Below, piece by piece: positions 28,405 to 37,797 of a stretch of DNA of 64,000 bases (position 1 is its first letter; each line of letters starts with the position of its first letter). The translations under genes and the position numbers were made by a program. The DNA is from Acidobacteriota bacterium (GTDB lineage: Bacteria; Acidobacteriota; Terriglobia; Bryobacterales; Bryobacteraceae): contig QHXW01000193.1 of NCBI GenBank assembly GCA_003223115.1, positions 1-64,000 on the forward strand, read 5' to 3'. A model generated the notes under the pieces. That model did no database searches, was not told the origin of the DNA, and saw nothing but the letters and a program-made list of their open reading frames with translations.

Positions 28405-29322
28405 ATGTCCCTGGTTGTGGTGGGTTCTGTGGCCTATGACGGCGTGGAGACGCCGCATGGCAAGGTGGATCGCATGCTTGGCGGCTCGTGCACGTACATT
28501 GCATTGGCGGCCAGCTTTTTCGCACCGGTGAAAATAGTGGCCGTGGTGGGCGAAGATTTCGCGCCAGAGGATTATGAGCTTCTGGCCAGCCGCGAGATCG
28601 GGCTCGAGGGTCTCGAACGCGTTCCCGGCAAGACTTTTTTCTGGGCGGGAAAGTATTCAGAAGACATGAACGATCGCACCACGCTGCGCACGGACCTCAA
28701 TGTGTTCGCCGATTTTAATCCAAAGCTGCCTGAGTCCTACCGCTCCTTGCCTTACCTGCTGCTGGGCAACATCCAGCCCGCTTTACAGCGCAGTGTGCGC
28801 GCGCAGATGAATGGAGTGCGCTTCGTGGGCGGCGACACCATGAACCTGTGGATCCGCGAGACTCACGACGAACTGATCGAGACCATTCGCGAGTGGGATT
28901 TTCTGCTGATCAACGACAGCGAAGCCCGAATGCTCTCGGGGGAACACAATTTGCGCCGAGCCGCTGGAAAAATTATGAGCACGGGGCCGCATACGCTGGT
29001 GATCAAGCGCGGCGAGTATGGCGCCATTCTGTTTCAGGGCGGATATTACTTCATGGTGCCGGGTTACCTGCTGGAGGACGTGTTCGATCCCACCGGTGCA
29101 GGCGACTGCTTCGCCGGTGGGTTCATGGGCTACCTCGCCGAGCGCGGCATCGATCCCGGCCACGGCGATATCGAACACCAGGAGTTGCGCCGGGCCGCCA
29201 TCTATGGATCGGTGATGGGAAGCTTTTGCTGCGAAAAGTTCGGTGTGGATCGTTTTCGCAACCTGACCCGCGCGGAGATCGATGCCCGCTATCGCGAATT
29301 CAAAAGCCTCACGGATTTCTGA
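28405..29322 (+). CDS. PfkB-family carbohydrate kinase
   Basis: A 305-residue ribokinase-like kinase. It has an N-terminal VVVGSVAYDGVETPHG, the GGSCTYIALAASFF segment equivalent to PfkB signature 1, and DPTGAGDCFAGGFMGYLAE as signature 2 with the catalytic Asp. It phosphorylates a sugar or nucleoside with ATP in the cytosol; the substrate is unknown. TACAAT at 28392-28397 is a likely -10 box only 7 bases before the ATG, so the transcript may be almost leaderless. The 3' end overlaps the next gene by 41 bases. Confidence 0.92.
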   Translation: MSLVVVGSVAYDGVETPHGKVDRMLGGSCTYIALAASFFAPVKIVAVVGEDFAPEDYELLASREIGLEGLERVPGKTFFWAGKYSEDMNDRTTLRTDLNVFADFNPKLPESYRSLPYLLLGNIQPALQRSVRAQMNGVRFVGGDTMNLWIRETHDELIETIREWDFLLINDSEARMLSGEHNLRRAAGKIMSTGPHTLVIKRGEYGAILFQGGYYFMVPGYLLEDVFDPTGAGDCFAGGFMGYLAERGIDPGHGDIEHQELRRAAIYGSVMGSFCCEKFGVDRFRNLTRAEIDARYREFKSLTDF

Positions 29323-30970
29323 GCAATCCGCCGGCGCGCCACGACGGGTCTGGATCGCTGTAATCCTTGCTGCGTTTTCTGTGTCGGCCGTGACGGCCTC
29401 TGCCGTGTGGCTGAGCTCGAGCCAGGGCTGGATCCTCTATTACGGTGATGCAGAAGCCCACCTGAACATTGCGCGCAGAATTCTCGATTCGCGTACCCCC
29501 GGGTTCGAACAATTGGGCACAGCATGGCTGCCGCTGCCGCATGCGCTGATGCTTCCTTTCGTGATGCACGATTTTCTGTGGTTCAGCGGCTTGGGGGGCG
29601 CCCTTCCGTCCGGCATCTGCTTTGCCGTGGGTGCGGTGTTTTTTTTCGCAGCGATTCAGGAGGTATTTTCGAGCCGGATAGCCGCGGGCGCCGGCACGGC
29701 TCTAATTGTCCTCAACCCCAACGCGCTTTACCTGGCGGCAGCACCCATGAGCGAACCCGTATTCTTCGCGGCATTTTCAGCGCTCCTGTACTTCGCGGTG
29801 CGGTTCCGTAGGACGCAGGCGTTGGGCTCGGCGGCGGCGGCGGGCGTTGCAGCTCTCGCGGGCACTATGACGCGTTACGAAGGCTGGTTCCTGATTCCGT
29901 TTGCGACGCTCTATTTTCTAATCGTCGCCCGTCCGAGAAGGATGGTTCCGGCGCTGGTTTTCGGTGCGATCGCAACTGTTGGCCCCGTTGCGTGGCTGGT
30001 GTACAACCGGTGGTTTTGCTTGGACGCGCTGGCATTTTACCGGGGTCCTTATTCCGCGAAAGCCATTCAAGGTGGCATTCCATACCCGGGTAACAGCGAC
30101 TGGCAAGCTGCGATCCTCTATTTCGGCTGGGCGGTGCGCGCTTGTGCGGGGGCACCGCTGTTTTTCATGGGGATTGCCGGAGCACTCGCGGCGCTCTGGA
30201 AGCGGGCCATCTGGCCGCTGGTGCTGCTGCTGCTGCCGGGAGCGTTTTACATCTGGAGCGTACACTCGTCGGGCAACCCGATTTTTCTTCCGAATCTTGA
30301 GACGCACTCGTACTACAACACGCGTTACGGCATGGCATTACTACCGTGGCTGGCGTTTTGTGGCGGAGCGCTGGTGGCGGCTGTGGGCGGAGCGCCCGCT
30401 TACTTACGTGCGCGGCGCCGTTGGATGGCGACGGCAGCCGTGCTCGCTATTGCGATTGCGCCATGGCTTCTCGAGCCGAGTCCTGAAAGCTGGATCACCT
30501 GGAAAGAGTCGCAAGTAAATTCCGAAGCGAGGCGCGCTTGGACACACCGGGCGGCGGCGTTCTTCAAGTCGCGATATCAGGCCGGCGAGGGTATTCTTAC
30601 CTCATTTGGCGATGCCATCGGCGTGATGCGTGAGGCCGGCATTCCTCTGCGCGCTACACTGACCATCGACAACGGCCCGTTGTGGGAGGCGGCCATTCGG
30701 CGTCCAGACCTGGTTCTGTGGGAAAAATGGGCGCTTGCGCGGGGTGGCGATCCAGTGCAAACGGCGGTCGATCGGGCACGCCGCCGCGGGCCGAATTACG
30801 ATCTGGCCCAGCGAATTATTGTCCAGCACTCACCCGTAATGGAAATTTACGAGCGGCGGACGGCGCCGGCTGGAGCTCTGGCTGCTCCGTACATGATGGC
30901 GCCGGCTGACGAAACTCCTGCGAATACAAATGAAGATTCCTTACCTCAAAGCACACGGCGCGAAGAATGA
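29282..30970 (+). CDS. Multi-pass GT-C-like membrane glycosyltransferase
   Basis: A 562-residue inner-membrane protein with about 10-11 hydrophobic helices and a soluble C-terminal part. After the first helix comes YYGDAEAHLNIARRILDSRT. Here the Asp/Glu pair occupies the place of the acidic motif in the first periplasmic loop of GT-C enzymes (PMT/ArnT), followed by GTAWLPLPHALMLPF. It probably transfers a sugar from a polyprenyl-linked donor on the outer face of the membrane; acceptor unknown. It overlaps the kinase gene upstream by 41 bases and dapF downstream by 41 bases, so the three are an operon. Confidence 0.75.
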   Translation: MPAIANSKASRISEQSAGAPRRVWIAVILAAFSVSAVTASAVWLSSSQGWILYYGDAEAHLNIARRILDSRTPGFEQLGTAWLPLPHALMLPFVMHDFLWFSGLGGALPSGICFAVGAVFFFAAIQEVFSSRIAAGAGTALIVLNPNALYLAAAPMSEPVFFAAFSALLYFAVRFRRTQALGSAAAAGVAALAGTMTRYEGWFLIPFATLYFLIVARPRRMVPALVFGAIATVGPVAWLVYNRWFCLDALAFYRGPYSAKAIQGGIPYPGNSDWQAAILYFGWAVRACAGAPLFFMGIAGALAALWKRAIWPLVLLLLPGAFYIWSVHSSGNPIFLPNLETHSYYNTRYGMALLPWLAFCGGALVAAVGGAPAYLRARRRWMATAAVLAIAIAPWLLEPSPESWITWKESQVNSEARRAWTHRAAAFFKSRYQAGEGILTSFGDAIGVMREAGIPLRATLTIDNGPLWEAAIRRPDLVLWEKWALARGGDPVQTAVDRARRRGPNYDLAQRIIVQHSPVMEIYERRTAPAGALAAPYMMAPADETPANTNEDSLPQSTRREE

Positions 30971-31733
30971 TTTTCTTCTGACCTGGGCCCACGAAGTCCC
31001 GGCTGGACCCCTTGCCAATTTGGCGCGCGCGATTTGCGATCGCCATACCGGGATTGGCGCAGACGGCTGGTTGCTGGTGGAGCGCGACGGCGAGCGGCAA
31101 GATGCTGATAGCGCGATCCGGCTGATCAACTCCGACGGCAGCGAGGCCGAAATTTCGGGTAACGGCACACGCTGCGCCGCGGCCTTTCTCATCTACCACG
31201 GACTGGCGAGCGAGCGCGTCCGTATAAGCACTGGGGCTGGCGTCAAACAACTGCGCCTGCTCGAGCGTTCTGGTCTGCGCTTCGTTTTCGAGATGAATAT
31301 GGGCCATCCCGAAATTCGAGAGGAGCATTTTGAGCTGACGCTTTCAACCGGGGCGCGCGACGTGACGCTGGTGTGGGTGGGAAACCCGCAGTGCGCGGTT
31401 CCGGTTGAGAACTTCGACTTTGACTGGCGCGGTGTTGGGGCGGAGATCGAACGGCACCCCCATTTTCCGAATCGGACGAACGTTTCATTTTTCCGGGTGG
31501 TTGACGGGCATACCATCGAAGTCCGCTTTTGGGAACGCGGCGCGGGCGAGACCATGAGTTCGGGGACGGGATCGACCGGGGCGGCTGCAGTGGCAATTCG
31601 TCGCGGCGCCGTTCAAGATCCGATAACTGTAGTTACACCGGCTGGAGAGCTCCAATTAAGGGGAAGCCCTAATGTATTTCTGGTGGGGCCGGTTGAGATC
31701 ATAGCAGAAGGCGCGTTTTATCTGGGAGAATAG
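30930..31733 (+). CDS. dapF: DapF-fold epimerase homologue with both catalytic cysteines replaced by serine
   Basis: A 267-residue protein with the two pseudo-symmetric halves of diaminopimelate epimerase. It opens KIPYLKAHGAKNDFL and contains NSDGSEAEISGNGTR (67-81) and GAGETMSSGTGSTGAA in the second half. The DapF signature requires Cys before GNG, and a second Cys in the ACGTG loop; these abstract and donate the alpha proton. Here both are Ser (Ser76 and Ser211). Cys82 after GNGTR is present but is not the catalytic one. The fold and binding residues are otherwise kept, so the protein is not decayed, but its activity as a meso-DAP epimerase is doubtful. It overlaps the glycosyltransferase gene and precedes a nucleotide-sugar dehydrogenase by six bases. 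Confidence 0.85.
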   Translation: MKIPYLKAHGAKNDFLLTWAHEVPAGPLANLARAICDRHTGIGADGWLLVERDGERQDADSAIRLINSDGSEAEISGNGTRCAAAFLIYHGLASERVRISTGAGVKQLRLLERSGLRFVFEMNMGHPEIREEHFELTLSTGARDVTLVWVGNPQCAVPVENFDFDWRGVGAEIERHPHFPNRTNVSFFRVVDGHTIEVRFWERGAGETMSSGTGSTGAAAVAIRRGAVQDPITVVTPAGELQLRGSPNVFLVGPVEIIAEGAFYLGE

Positions 31734-31739
31734 GCAGGA

Positions 31740-33065
31740 ATGACCACCGCACAAGTAGAAACACAAGCGACCGCCAAGGTCTTGGAGGAAAAAATTCGTA
31801 CGCGCCGGGCGCGCGTGGGGATTATCGGCCTGGGATATGTCGGTTTACCCCTGGCCGTGGAGTTCGCCAAGGCGGGTTTCACGGTCACCGGCATCGACCT
31901 GAGCGAGAGCAAGACGGCGCGAATCAACGCTGGAGATTCGTATGTCGGCGATGTGTCCAACGCAACGCTGAAGCCCCTGGTGGACGCTGGCAAGTTGCGG
32001 GCGACCAATGATTTTTCGGCCGTGCTGGAACTCGATACGGTGAACATCTGCGTGCCGACGCCACTGCGCAAGACCAAAGACCCGGACATGAGTTTTATCG
32101 TGTCCGCGTGCAGTGAAATCGCCAAATATTTCCACGCAGGTACGCTGGTGATTTTGGAATCGACCACGTATCCCGGCACGACCGATGAAGTGGTGCTGCC
32201 GATGCTTGAAAAGGACGGTTTGAAAGTCGGGCAGGATTTCTTTCTCTGCTTCTCGCCGGAGCGCGTGGATCCAGGCAATCCGAAATACAACACATCCAAC
32301 ATTCCCAAAGTAGTCGGCGGCGTCACGCCGGCCTGCTCGGAGATGGGACGGGTGTTCTACTCGCAGGCGCTTCAGAAAGTCGTGGCGGTGAGTTCCACCC
32401 AGGTTGCCGAAATGGTGAAGCTGCTGGAGAATACGTTCCGCATGATCAACATCGGCCTGGCGAACGAGATTGCCATGATGTGCGACCGCATGAGCATCAA
32501 TGTCTGGGAAGTGATCGAGGCGGCAGCCACGCAGCCGTTCGGCTTTATGCCGTTCTTCCCCGGCCCGGGTTTGGGCGGCCATTGCATCCCCATCGATCCG
32601 TTTTATCTGTCCTGGAAGACCAAGCAAGCGGGCATTGAGGCCCGTTTCATCGAGTTGGCAGGCCATATCAACGGGCAGATGCCGCACTTTGTGATCGACA
32701 AGATTCAAAACGCGCTGAACGAGCATTCCAAACCCGTAAAAGGCTCGCATGTGCATGTGCTCGGCGTGGCCTACAAGAAAGACATCGAAGATGTTCGCGA
32801 ATCGCCGGCACTGGACATCATGCTCCTGCTCAAGCGCCGAGGCGCCCGGGTGACTTTCTCAGACCCGCATGTGCCGGTGCTCGAGCTTGACGGCCTTGAG
32901 CTTGCCTCAGAAGATGTTTCGACAGTCGCAGACGCCGATTGCGCTGTGATTGTGACGGACCATTCCAAGTTCGACTATCGCGGTATTGTCGAGCGGGCCC
33001 ATCTGATTGTCGATACGCGCAACGCGCTCAAAGGCATTCAATCAGAAAAAATCGTCCGGCTCTAA
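31740..33065 (+). CDS. UDP-N-acetylglucosamine/UDP-sugar 6-dehydrogenase (WbpA type)
   Basis: A 441-residue NAD-dependent nucleotide-sugar dehydrogenase. It converts the C6 hydroxyl to a carboxylate for surface-polysaccharide precursors. It has the N-terminal Rossmann motif GIIGLGYVGLPLAVEFA, the STTYPGTT loop, FCFSPERVDPGN-like LCFSPERVDPGNP, and the catalytic cysteine segment PGPGLGGHCIPIDPFYLSW. The PIDPFYLSWK continuation and length favour the UDP-N-acetyl sugar subgroup over UDP-glucose dehydrogenase. It follows dapF by six bases and ends a four-gene run with kinase and glycosyltransferase, consistent with glycan synthesis. Confidence 0.92.
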   Translation: MTTAQVETQATAKVLEEKIRTRRARVGIIGLGYVGLPLAVEFAKAGFTVTGIDLSESKTARINAGDSYVGDVSNATLKPLVDAGKLRATNDFSAVLELDTVNICVPTPLRKTKDPDMSFIVSACSEIAKYFHAGTLVILESTTYPGTTDEVVLPMLEKDGLKVGQDFFLCFSPERVDPGNPKYNTSNIPKVVGGVTPACSEMGRVFYSQALQKVVAVSSTQVAEMVKLLENTFRMINIGLANEIAMMCDRMSINVWEVIEAAATQPFGFMPFFPGPGLGGHCIPIDPFYLSWKTKQAGIEARFIELAGHINGQMPHFVIDKIQNALNEHSKPVKGSHVHVLGVAYKKDIEDVRESPALDIMLLLKRRGARVTFSDPHVPVLELDGLELASEDVSTVADADCAVIVTDHSKFDYRGIVERAHLIVDTRNALKGIQSEKIVRL

Positions 33066-33194: not shown

Positions 33195-36100
33195 ATGGCC
33201 AACAGGGAAAATAAACCAAGTTCCAAACGCAATTCAAAACTCCGCCCGGACCGAGAGCCGGCGGGGCGTCAACCGGCACAGAAAAGCGAGAGCGCGAACC
33301 GCGAGGCCCAAGATGCCGGAGCGCGCCACAAGACCGCAACAATTCCGGAACGCCACTCGCGTTTGGCTCCGGAACCTCATGCGACGCAGGCCGATGGGGC
33401 GGCAGCCGGAGGAGCTGAGCGAGACGGCCAGGCAGACGCAGATCTGGCAGCGTTTCCGGTAGTCGGCATCGGCGCGTCGGCCGGTGGTCTCGAGGCGGCC
33501 AAACAATTCCTTGAACACCTGGCGCCCGACACCGGAATGGCGTATGTTCTGGTTCAGCACCTGGATCCCAAGCACGAAAGCTTGCTGAGTGAGATTCTCG
33601 CGAGATCTACCAATATTCCGGTTCGTGAAGTCAACCGCCCCACGGCCATCGAGCCTGATCATGTTTATGTGACACCACGCGGGATGGATATTCGCGTGTC
33701 AGGCCGCGTGCTCACGCTTTCTCCGCGCGACCACGATGCATCGATGCAAATTGATTTCTTTTTCAGGTCATTGGCGCAGGACCTGAGAAATAAAGCGATC
33801 GGTATTATTTTGTCGGGCACGGGAAGTGATGGCTCATTGGGTCTCAAGGCCATCAAGGCGGAAGGCGGCATCACCTTCGCACAGGACGAGAGGACGGCCA
33901 AGCATGACGGCATGCCGCGCAGCGCCGTAGCCTCGGGTTGCGTGGACTTCGTGCTGCCGCCGAACGACATCGCTCAGGAACTGGCGCGGATCGGGCGGCA
34001 TCCGTATGTTGGGCCCAGACCGGCTCCGCCGGAAGAAGTCATTCCGGTGCCCGAGGACGTGCTGACGCAGGTTCTGCATGTGGTGCGAAATACTACGGGA
34101 GTCGATCTCACGCAATACAAGCAGAACACGATCAAGCGCCGCGTCCTGCGCCGGATGATGCTGCACAAAATCGAGTCGCTCGACCAGTATCTTGCTCGCC
34201 TCACGGGGGACACTGGAGAGATCCGCGCCTTGTATGACGACATTCTGATCAACGTCACGCAGTTTTTCCGTGACCCGGAGACTTTCGAAACGATTAAAAC
34301 CGAAACTTTCCCCAAGATATTGGGGGCAATGTCAAACGGCGGGCCGGTGCGCATCTGGGTGCCCGGTTGCTCCACCGGTGAGGAAGCGTACTCGCTGGCG
34401 ATCTGTCTTCTCGAATTTCTGGAAGATCGTGTTCCCCAAACGCCTATACAAATTTTCGCGACCGACATCAGCGACATGGCGCTCGAGAAAGCGCGCGCGG
34501 GTGTCTACACGGAAAACATCGTGGCCGACGTCCCTCGGGAACGGTTGAAACGTTTTTTTGTCAAAGCGGAGCGCGGATATCAGATCAGCAAACGGATTCG
34601 CGATCTTTGTGTGTTTGCGAGGCAAAACATGACCAAGGATCCTCCGTTTTCCAATCTGGACCTCATCAGTTGCCGCAATGTGCTGATCTATCTCGGAACG
34701 ACGCTGCAAAAGAGAGTGTTGTCAGTTTTTCACTACGCCCTGAAACCCACGGGCTACCTTGTTTTGGGCAGCACGGAAACCATCGCGACGTACGCCGATC
34801 TGTTCACTCTGGCAGACAAGAAGCACAAGATTTTTGCCAAGAAACTGACGGCCACACGCCAGCCGGTTGAATTCTCTTATGTACCGGGCCAGGGGAACGC
34901 CGGGGTTGGCGGCGAGGTCAACCCAAGAGCCGCGAGCACATGGACAGCAGCGGATTTGCAGCGCGAAGCGGACCGTGTGGTGCTCTCCCGTTTCGGGCCC
35001 CCAGGCGCCGTCGTCGACGAAGACCTCGACGTATTGCAGTTCCGCGGCCAGACCGGTATTTATCTCGAGCCCTCGCCCGGCCCGGCAAGCTATAACATTC
35101 TGAAAATGGCGCGTAGAGGACTGCTGCCGTATCTGCGGAGCGCGATTCAGCAGGCCCGGTCAGGCGACATCAGCGTGCGGCATGAAGGGCTGCGGATTGA
35201 ATACGACGGCGGTTCTCGTGAGTTCGATCTCGAGGTGATTCCGATTAAGCGCTCCGGCACAGAGTCGCGTTACTTCCTGGTTCTATTCCATCCCGCGCGC
35301 GCGAGCACGCCACAGAAAGGCAGGCCAAAAGGTCAGCCTGTCTCGCGGTTGGTGGAGTCCGCAGAGTTGAAAACGTTGCGGCAGGATCTGGCCATCTCCA
35401 AGGACAACCTGCAGGCCATCATCGAGGAACTCGAGTCTTCCAACGAGGAATTGCGTTCGGCGAATGAAGAGATCCAGTCGAGCAACGAAGAGTTACAAAG
35501 TACGAATGAGGAACTCGAAACCGCAAAGGAAGAGCTGCAGTCGAGCAACGAAGAGCTGAACACAGTCAACGAGGAGTTGGAAAACCGCAACAATCAGTTG
35601 ACGCAGGCCAATAACGACTTGCGGAACCTGCTCAGCAGCGTGAGCATCCCGATTGTCATGGTGGGTAACGATCTGAGCATCCGGCGCTTCACGCCCCAAG
35701 CGGAAAAAGTGCTGAGCCTGATTTCGAGCGACCTGGGGCGGCCGATTGGCAACATCCGACCGAACATCAATATTTCCAATCTGGAGCAGCTTCTGGCGGA
35801 GGTCATCGAGACTCTTCACACCTACGAGGCCGACGTTCAAGATGTGAACGGGCGTTGGTATTCACTTCGTATCCGGCCTTATCGCACGGAGGAAAACAAA
35901 ATCGAAGGCGCTGTTCTTGCGCTGGTGGATATAGACCCGCTCAAGCGCAGCCTGGAGGCAACCAAAGGCGCGCGGGACTTCAACCAGAGTGTGATCGAGA
36001 CCATCCGTTCGCCGCTGGTGGTGCTGGACAACGACTTGCAAGTGAAGCTGATCAACCGAGCCTTCTCCCAGATGTTTCACCTGAGTACTGCCGAAGTGGA

Positions 36101-37190
36101 AAACCGGCATCTTTATCAGATCGGTGGCGGTGAATGGGACATTCAGAAGCTGAGATCCATGGTCGAGGAACTGCTTCCCAAGAAAGGAAGAGTTGACGAT
36201 TACGAGATAGAGAATGATTTTCCGCGCGTCGGCCTCAAGACGCTGCTCCTCAATTCCAGACGCTTCGTCCCCATGTCCGGCGAAGCCGAAATGGTCTTGC
36301 TGGCCATCGAGGATGTAACGGAAAGGAAGCGGAGCGAAAATGTCTTACTGCGCGCTCAGGAAGAACTCGAGGGAAAGGTAGCGCAAAGAACTGCGGAGCT
36401 GGAACGCGTCACCGGAACGCTGCGGGCCGAGATTTCTGAGCGCACACGCATTCAGAACGCGCTCGAGCAAAGCGAAGCGGTGCTACTGCAGAGCCAGGCG
36501 CAGTTGCGAAGCCTTGCCGCCAACCTCATTACGGCGCACGAGGAGGAACGCCGGCGTATCTCGAGAGAGCTTCACGACGCTATGAACCAGAAGCTGGCGA
36601 TGCTCGAAATAGACGCCGAGAGCCTCGAGAAAAAGTTGCCGGCGGGGGCGGAGCAGGTGCGGAAGGGTTTACGGACCCTGCGCGCGCGCGTTGGCGAAGT
36701 ATCGAACGAAACCCGGCGATTGGCCTACCAACTCCATCCCTCGATGCTGGACGACCTTGGCCTTGAGGTGGCATTGAGGTCCCATATCGCCGCCCTCTCA
36801 AAACGAGAAGGCACTCAGATCGATTTCGTGGCCGACACTCTTCCCGAAAAGCTTTCCCGAGACGTCAGCTTATCCTTGTACCGCATTGCGCAGGAGGCGA
36901 TTCACAACGTCATCAAGCACGCCCGGACAACGCAGGCAACTGTATCGCTTCATGTGGGCAAACAGGGGATTCAATTGACTATTCTCGATCACGGAGCCGG
37001 CTTTGACCCGCAGGCCGTCCGTTCAAAACGCGGCCTGGGCCTGGTCAGCATCGAAGAGCGAGTTAGACTAATCAATGGATACTTAGGTATCCAGTCCAAA
37101 CCTGGACAGGGAACCAAAATTGAAGTAACCGTGCCGCTGCCCGCGGAGTTACGGAAAGCAAATGAGTCGCCCGCGCCTGCTGATTGCTGA
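33195..37190 (+). CDS. CheB-CheR-PAS-PAS-histidine kinase fusion protein
   Basis: A 1331-residue cytoplasmic sensor. Residues 1-85 are polar and disordered. About 87-275 is a CheB methylesterase domain without receiver, with the triad Ser95 (GIGASAGG), His122 (VQHLDP) and Asp212 (SGTGSDG). About 285-560 is CheR methyltransferase with the SAM loop WVPGCSTGEEAYS. About 720-815 is a long heptad coiled coil made of SNEEL-type repeats. Two PAS domains follow, then HisKA_3 (ISRELHDAMNQKLAM, His near 1125) and a HATPase domain ending in LGLVSIEERVRLINGYLG. The kinase type pairs with LuxR/NarL regulators, and one follows with a 29-base overlap. Substrate and signal are unknown; no chemoreceptor genes are nearby. 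Confidence 0.93.
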   Translation: MANRENKPSSKRNSKLRPDREPAGRQPAQKSESANREAQDAGARHKTATIPERHSRLAPEPHATQADGAAAGGAERDGQADADLAAFPVVGIGASAGGLEAAKQFLEHLAPDTGMAYVLVQHLDPKHESLLSEILARSTNIPVREVNRPTAIEPDHVYVTPRGMDIRVSGRVLTLSPRDHDASMQIDFFFRSLAQDLRNKAIGIILSGTGSDGSLGLKAIKAEGGITFAQDERTAKHDGMPRSAVASGCVDFVLPPNDIAQELARIGRHPYVGPRPAPPEEVIPVPEDVLTQVLHVVRNTTGVDLTQYKQNTIKRRVLRRMMLHKIESLDQYLARLTGDTGEIRALYDDILINVTQFFRDPETFETIKTETFPKILGAMSNGGPVRIWVPGCSTGEEAYSLAICLLEFLEDRVPQTPIQIFATDISDMALEKARAGVYTENIVADVPRERLKRFFVKAERGYQISKRIRDLCVFARQNMTKDPPFSNLDLISCRNVLIYLGTTLQKRVLSVFHYALKPTGYLVLGSTETIATYADLFTLADKKHKIFAKKLTATRQPVEFSYVPGQGNAGVGGEVNPRAASTWTAADLQREADRVVLSRFGPPGAVVDEDLDVLQFRGQTGIYLEPSPGPASYNILKMARRGLLPYLRSAIQQARSGDISVRHEGLRIEYDGGSREFDLEVIPIKRSGTESRYFLVLFHPARASTPQKGRPKGQPVSRLVESAELKTLRQDLAISKDNLQAIIEELESSNEELRSANEEIQSSNEELQSTNEELETAKEELQSSNEELNTVNEELENRNNQLTQANNDLRNLLSSVSIPIVMVGNDLSIRRFTPQAEKVLSLISSDLGRPIGNIRPNINISNLEQLLAEVIETLHTYEADVQDVNGRWYSLRIRPYRTEENKIEGAVLALVDIDPLKRSLEATKGARDFNQSVIETIRSPLVVLDNDLQVKLINRAFSQMFHLSTAEVENRHLYQIGGGEWDIQKLRSMVEELLPKKGRVDDYEIENDFPRVGLKTLLLNSRRFVPMSGEAEMVLLAIEDVTERKRSENVLLRAQEELEGKVAQRTAELERVTGTLRAEISERTRIQNALEQSEAVLLQSQAQLRSLAANLITAHEEERRRISRELHDAMNQKLAMLEIDAESLEKKLPAGAEQVRKGLRTLRARVGEVSNETRRLAYQLHPSMLDDLGLEVALRSHIAALSKREGTQIDFVADTLPEKLSRDVSLSLYRIAQEAIHNVIKHARTTQATVSLHVGKQGIQLTILDHGAGFDPQAVRSKRGLGLVSIEERVRLINGYLGIQSKPGQGTKIEVTVPLPAELRKANESPAPADC

Positions 37191-37797
37191 CGATCACCGG
37201 CTTCTGGTGGAAGGCTACCGGAAGCTGCTGGAAACCGAGTTCGACGTTGTCGGTGAAGTGGAAGACGGGCGCGCGCTGCTCGAGCTTGCTCCACAGCTTC
37301 AGCCGGACGTCATTCTGCTGGACGTTTCCATGCCGCTGCTCAACGGAATTGAGGCGGCGCGCCGTCTGAAGCCCCTGCTGCCTGACACGAAGCTTCTTTT
37401 CGTCAGCATGCACGCCGATTCGCAATATGTGGCTGAGGCTTTTCGAGCCGGAGGTTCCGGATATTTACTGAAGTCGTGCGCCAGCTCCGAACTTGTCAGC
37501 GCGATCCATCAGGTCCTGCAGGGCCGCCAGTACGTGACGCCAGCGATTTCCACGGGTGAACTGGCTCAGACGGCTGAAGTTCGCCCTGGCGCTATCCTGC
37601 CCCAGCTCTCGCCTCGGCAGCGCGAGGTGTTACAGCTGGTTACCGAAGGCCAAACGGCTAAGGAAATTGCAGGCCGGCTCCGGATTTCTGTGAAAACGGT
37701 AGAATTCCACAAGACCAGGATCATGCGCGCCCTGCGCGTGCGCTCGGTGGCTGAACTCACGCGCTATGCGGTCACCCGCGGTCTGGTGAGCCCGTAG
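37162..37797 (+). CDS. NarL/LuxR-family response regulator
   Basis: A 211-residue two-domain regulator. The N-terminal receiver has the acidic pair IADDH, the phospho-acceptor Asp in VILLDVSMPLLNG (about residue 54), Ser/Thr in LLFVSMHAD, and Lys in YLLKSCAS. The C-terminal helix-turn-helix is LSPRQREVLQLVTEGQTAKE followed by IAGRLRISVKTVEFHKTRIM, the GerE/LuxR signature. The 29-base overlap with the CheB-CheR-kinase gene makes it that kinase's partner. Target genes are not known. Confidence 0.94.
   Translation: MSRPRLLIADDHRLLVEGYRKLLETEFDVVGEVEDGRALLELAPQLQPDVILLDVSMPLLNGIEAARRLKPLLPDTKLLFVSMHADSQYVAEAFRAGGSGYLLKSCASSELVSAIHQVLQGRQYVTPAISTGELAQTAEVRPGAILPQLSPRQREVLQLVTEGQTAKEIAGRLRISVKTVEFHKTRIMRALRVRSVAELTRYAVTRGLVSP

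Follow-up and report, generated by a model that had tools for sequence, protein, structure and literature searches.

In the phylum Acidobacteriota the usual state of DapF is one in which both catalytic cysteines are replaced by serine. As far as the searches reach, such Ser/Ser proteins represent a real, phylum-wide and undescribed variant of the textbook enzyme, and no description of a Ser/Ser DapF was found in the open-access literature searched. The example dissected here lies in a stretch of 64,000 nucleotides from an acidobacterial draft genome, hereafter the window. With slightly better than even probability, the protein that it encodes is the genuine diaminopimelate (DAP) epimerase of the cell, operating with a Ser/Ser acid–base pair. 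That most of the phylum makes meso-DAP by a thiol-free epimerase, in which the alpha proton is moved between two serines, is evenly poised. DapF has long been studied as an antibacterial target and is the standard example of an epimerase that works with two cysteines and no cofactor; alpha-proton transfer on an unactivated amino acid is thought to need a thiol/thiolate pair. The sole candidate for flipping diaminopimelate, from which lysine and the cell wall are built, is nevertheless Ser/Ser in most Acidobacteriota: either the reaction proceeds free of thiols or meso-DAP is made by another way. Either outcome is informative, and DapF inhibitors of the thiol-reactive or aziridine kind should fail on Ser/Ser enzymes.

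The dapF gene of the window

The gene and its diagnostic codons are located as follows.

30930..31733, + strand: dapF homologue of the Ser/Ser type, 267 aa (TIGR00652, PF01678, AlphaFold2 model)
31155..31157, + strand: codon 76, TCG, Ser replacing the first catalytic Cys (direct reading, alignment column, model)
31389..31391, + strand: codon 154, Gln replacing the His of the GNPH loop (alignment column)
31560..31562, + strand: codon 211, TCG, Ser replacing the second catalytic Cys (direct reading, alignment column, model)

The reading frame is intact and encodes a full-length DapF, its start sharing 41 bases with the end of the upstream open reading frame (29282–30970). The protein scores 201.3 bits against TIGR00652 (curated cut-off 114.65) and 140.5 bits against PF01678 (cut-off 34.7); the latter is its only Pfam match, with none to the proline racemase models. 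Its nearest solved sequence relatives are DAP epimerases, the best ones being Cys/Cys. Two features of the DapF enzyme are lacking: the pair of catalytic cysteines, replaced by Ser76 (INSDGSEAEI-S76-GNGTRC) and Ser211 (WERGAGETMS-S211-GTGSTG), and the GNPH histidine, replaced by Gln154. The preliminary description of this DNA had proposed that both cysteines are changed to serine within a retained signature and that the gene, intact and overlapping its partner, is maintained. Direct codon reading and alignment with the DapF cysteines confirm the two replacements, and the alignment also confirms the flanking signature. Comparison with five relatives gives a dN/dS of ∼0.06–0.18, which indicates purifying selection and, together with the intact frame, rules out a pseudogene. 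A sequencing error or a change limited to one species is ruled out by 140 Ser/Ser acidobacterial rows. That description mentioned neither the prevalence of Ser/Ser in the phylum nor the third conserved residue, His154, being Gln in the class to which the window belongs.

These 140 rows, in which a few genes are entered twice, were aligned with 64 canonical rows. All 140 have serine at both catalytic places. Both classes show little or no variation at N13, N67, G77, N78, N152, N184, E202, R203 and G212 (window numbering), the residues that we take to contact DAP in DapF structures, and the window protein retains all nine. Among active-site positions only 76 and 211 fully split Ser/Ser from Cys/Cys proteins. 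Ser76 is encoded by TCN in 125 rows and by AGC in 15, and Ser211 by TCN in 137 and by AGC in three; cysteine occurs at neither place in any of the 140 rows, even though a single base change would turn TCC or TCT into a cysteine codon. The conserved serines and contacts, the codon use and the low dN/dS therefore point to working residues and not to decay.

Position 154 follows a different pattern. The histidine of GNPH, which a study in chlamydiae reports to be essential (PMC5885031), is found in 64/64 non-acidobacterial Cys/Cys rows. Among relatives of the window Gln takes its place in 48/49 rows; of all Ser/Ser rows, 66/140 have His and 63/140 have Gln. Two kinds of compensation were considered and rejected on the alignment. 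The Ser/Ser clade has not fixed any new cysteine that might be a relocated catalytic residue, C82 and C155 being present in canonical DapF too, and no compensating Lys, His or Asp is fixed, Lys12 of the window protein being unconserved (K in 7%).

Two AlphaFold2 models (pLDDT 94.8 and, for the window protein, 95.6) display the DapF fold of two pseudo-symmetric domains, and their best PDB matches are DAP epimerases. Structures of the proline racemase type rank under these, at 12–17% identity. The window model matches aziDAP-bound Anabaena DapF (9mro) with a TM score of 0.90. Helices begin at residues 77 and 212 of this model, each serine thus directly preceding one; the cysteines of DapF are likewise situated at helix starts (PMC12039745).

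Distribution and descent of the two classes

The catalytic positions were read in DapF genes from 163 acidobacterial genomes, 119 of which contain Ser/Ser only, 42 Cys/Cys only, one both (G027) and one a Cys/Ser protein (G081). The last (locus L161) is the sole mixed pair seen, its first catalytic residue being Cys and its second Ser. Seven genomes of family f28, putatively named Holophagaceae, are counted among the 119 and also hold a second, weak DapF-like match. The Ser/Ser copy of this family (L254, L255, L257–L260, L072) is diverged and reads SG[ND]G ... ASGSS, and sister genomes harbour only the second DapF-like type, reading Cys/Cys. A scan of named genomes returned 16 Ser/Ser and 64 Cys/Cys proteins among the best 80 matches. 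Fourteen of these 16 loci are titled Acidobacteria, Aminicenantes or subgroups thereof, and the other two belong to the unclassified 'bacterium HR08' and 'HR10'; all 64 named relatives from other phyla within the same 80 matches are Cys/Cys, none being Ser/Ser.

A maximum-likelihood tree of 88 rows, from which both catalytic columns had been removed, gathers 45 of 47 Ser/Ser rows in one group (support 98/95) beside the canonical Cys/Cys DapFs from outside the phylum. The remaining two (L129, L136), both divergent, instead adjoin the canonical group. A constraint joining all Ser/Ser rows costs nothing (p-AU 0.52), and a single origin of the class is not rejected; the Ser/Ser clade that the preliminary description had proposed to seek among acidobacterial homologues is therefore recovered. 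The 14 sampled acidobacterial Cys/Cys rows form a separate, distant group (100/100), among which the Cys/Ser row falls. This Cys/Cys class mostly reads GVPH where GNPH is expected. Its members seem to have been imported later and to have displaced the Ser/Ser gene.

Tallied by genome, eight hold both classes (one read directly, G027, and seven inferred from a second copy seen as a weak match), 112 Ser/Ser only, 42 Cys/Cys only and eight neither, the last counted among genomes at least 90% complete; the corresponding Fisher p of 1e-23 serves only as a guide, since shared ancestry is ignored and the sample is not random. Within the genus g107, G124 and G214 are Ser/Ser and G259 is Cys/Cys. Copies of the two classes are largely mutually exclusive, and one takes the place of the other even between species of a single genus.

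The two classes occupy the same metabolic settings, as judged from DapB, which is detected by TIGR00036 in 24/48 Ser/Ser and 17/32 Cys/Cys genomes of the phylum sample (p 0.82). Mutual exclusion, exchange within a genus and equal DapB frequency favour the same job for both. DapB is thus absent by this model from approximately half of the DapF-bearing acidobacterial genomes of either class, and a loss peculiar to Ser/Ser genomes is ruled out. In the genomes that appear devoid of it, either DapB has diverged or another reductase serves.

meso-DAP supply and the reaction of the Ser/Ser protein

The source genome is a 9.1 Mb draft, 97.5% complete, whose closest named relatives among the matches listed are Bryobacterales/Bryobacteraceae MAGs of the Acidobacteriota. 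The second dapF and the ddh gene that the preliminary description had suggested looking for are both missing. The Ser/Ser gene is the only DapF gene present, which rules out a hidden Cys/Cys copy, and a single DapF is also the rule, with few exceptions, in the 61 relatives and 247 phylum members surveyed. No Ddh scores above cut-off in the source genome, and a Ddh bypass is ruled out among the 61 genomes, as TIGR01921 exceeds its cut-off in 0/61. No LL-DAP aminotransferase (DapL) is above cut-off either: the best candidate reaches 425 bits against a required 593, and the model closest to it, alanine transaminase, is likewise under its own cut-off. LysA is present (491 bits), as it is above cut-off in 57/61 relatives, and DapB lies barely above threshold (127 bits vs 122). 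MurE carries the DAP-type motif DNPR, shared by all MurE proteins read (34 genomes) and by lineages with a Cys/Cys DapF, which rules out a non-DAP-type MurE in some lineages.

Two complete genomes of the window's class, G058 and G060, possess LysA and a DNPR-type MurE without a DapF homologue of any class, so another, unrelated epimerase may exist. Chloracidobacterium is a lysine auxotroph (PMC12816986); in Chloracidobacterium validum (G145; L056, L303, L314) a Ser/Ser DapF and a DNPR-type MurE are kept and DapB is undetected. As Cys/Cys genomes lack DapB just as often, this case is not special to Ser/Ser.

The epimerase reading is favoured by the fold, the DAP-binding residues, the conservation of the serines, the lack of a Cys/Cys DapF or Ddh and the presence of enzymes that require meso-DAP. 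One deprotonated serine would take the alpha proton of DAP and the other would return a proton from the opposite face; location at a helix start, as for the DapF cysteines, would lower the pKa enough. From DAP binding and two kept serines we infer DAP epimerisation, in which the protein would turn over DAP with serine as the proton-transferring residue. As the defining two-cysteine feature fails despite the DapF sequence and fold, 'DAP epimerase' is employed as a hypothesis and not as an annotation.

Known systems provide partial precedents. Canonical Cys/Cys DapF (TIGR00652, PF01678) has the same fold (TM ∼0.8–0.9), length and DAP contacts as the window protein, and differs in its two catalytic cysteines and in the GNPH histidine where the window's class has Gln. 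The Haemophilus influenzae DapF variants C73S and C217S (2q9h, 2q9j), close structural matches, each have serine at one of the two catalytic positions; these are engineered single changes, whereas the natural proteins have both serines and keep the other contacts. Within the proline racemase superfamily, a natural catalytic serine in the same fold is described for the Ser/Cys 4-hydroxyproline epimerase and the Ser/Thr t3-hydroxyproline dehydratase (PMC4113996). These belong to another family with other substrates, one cysteine stays in the Ser/Cys epimerase, and Ser/Ser is not among the residue pairs named in the passages of that paper that were consulted. In the Asp/Glu racemases EcL-DER and MMP0739 a hydroxyl (Thr) substitutes for one thiol, but the fold is different and one cysteine is retained (PMC8142540). 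The literature searched contained no natural Ser/Ser racemase.

Several observations count against the epimerase reading. By analogy with engineered DapF-fold racemases, loss of even one thiol would be expected to leave a nearly dead enzyme: single Cys-to-Ser mutants of PddB retain <0.1% activity, similar results for Mycobacterium tuberculosis DapF are cited in the same study (PMC8225329), and single mutants of another DapF-fold racemase are greatly slowed (PMC11602996). In the alignment, the window's class has lost His154, and the Ser/Ser clade has fixed no new ionisable residue that might activate the serines. The gene is kept by lysine-auxotrophic Chloracidobacterium without detectable DapB, G058 and G060 combine LysA and DNPR-type MurE without DapF, and the seven Holophagaceae have, besides Ser/Ser, a second copy of the type that is Cys/Cys in their sisters.

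The choice put forward in the preliminary description, between a slower Ser/Ser mechanism and another reaction, still holds. The second option, in which DAP or something closely similar is bound but a different reaction is performed while an unrecognised enzyme supplies meso-DAP, is rather unlikely. For example, the protein might act on a beta-substituted amino acid by elimination or dehydration, or epimerise some more acidic substrate. Loss of cysteine accompanies a switch to dehydratase in the proline racemase superfamily, as with the Ser/Thr t3-hydroxyproline dehydratase (PMC4113996), and such a switch is also known with Cys-to-Thr (PMC8142540); one DapF-like protein proved to be a histidine racemase (PMC11602996). 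The two genomes of the window's class without DapF and the retention of the gene in Chloracidobacterium without lysine synthesis would suit this reading, against which stand the retention of all canonical DAP-contact residues, the replacement rather than accumulation of Ser/Ser and Cys/Cys copies, and the equal frequency of DapB absence in Cys/Cys genomes. If the Ser/Ser clade does not epimerise DAP, an unrecognised meso-DAP enzyme must exist and the phylum-wide annotation of DapF is wrong.

It is distinctly improbable that the protein is catalytically dead and retained for binding, in the manner of Escherichia coli DapF, which binds RppH in complexes that have been solved (6d13). Cys-to-Ser replacement normally abolishes activity, but it would be surprising for a dead enzyme to keep serine alone at both places through switches between TCN and AGC codons, along with every conserved contact, and if the sole DapF were dead and nothing replaced it in catalysis, LysA and MurE would lack their substrate. 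The least probable alternative, and a very doubtful one, is a vestigial, very slow epimerase in cells needing little meso-DAP, as the wall uses LL-DAP or MurE and LysA tolerate it. Cys-to-Ser mutants do keep a low, non-zero activity, and the DNPR motif alone does not distinguish meso- from LL-DAP; Cys/Cys lineages, however, share the same MurE motif, and the strict conservation of the protein speaks against a vestige.

Gene neighbourhood

The genes surrounding dapF in the window are listed below.

28405..29322, + strand: PfkB-family kinase (PF00294)
29282..30970, + strand: GT-C-like membrane protein, 562 aa, overlapping dapF (weak PMT_2 match)
31740..33065, + strand: nucleotide-sugar dehydrogenase, downstream of dapF (TIGR03026, 428 bits)
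33195–37190: 1331-aa protein in which CheB, CheR, PAS and histidine-kinase domains are joined (domain matches)
37162–37797: response regulator following the CheB/CheR fusion

The preliminary description had regarded the first three of these as casting doubt on a role in lysine or peptidoglycan synthesis. This doubt was not borne out: dapF neighbours vary by lineage and therefore say little about function, and the gene context counts neither for nor against a DAP role. A function tied to the GT-C-like protein or to the sugar dehydrogenase is ruled out, both being local to the window's class.

PfkB homologues, which of all neighbours persist most widely in the phylum, occur near dapF in 13 of 37 loci, including families f36, f64 and f80, and a PfkB gene also lies directly upstream of dapF in L173 and in three further families. 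GT-C-like homologues are encoded upstream of dapF in L212, L251, L317–L319 and L321–L323, a conserved partnership confined to the window's class, which retains the order PfkB – GT-C-like – dapF. The 562-aa protein is multi-pass and without a PDB relative; one homologue of it matches PF13231 above cut-off. The nucleotide-sugar dehydrogenase adjoins dapF in seven loci including the window, all of them nearest relatives. Several dapF neighbours are cell-envelope genes, none of which is general: the gene before dapF encodes HtrA in Aminicenantes and a PBP4-like protein in Blastocatellia-type loci, and family f8 has a peptidase S66 (LD-carboxypeptidase) downstream.
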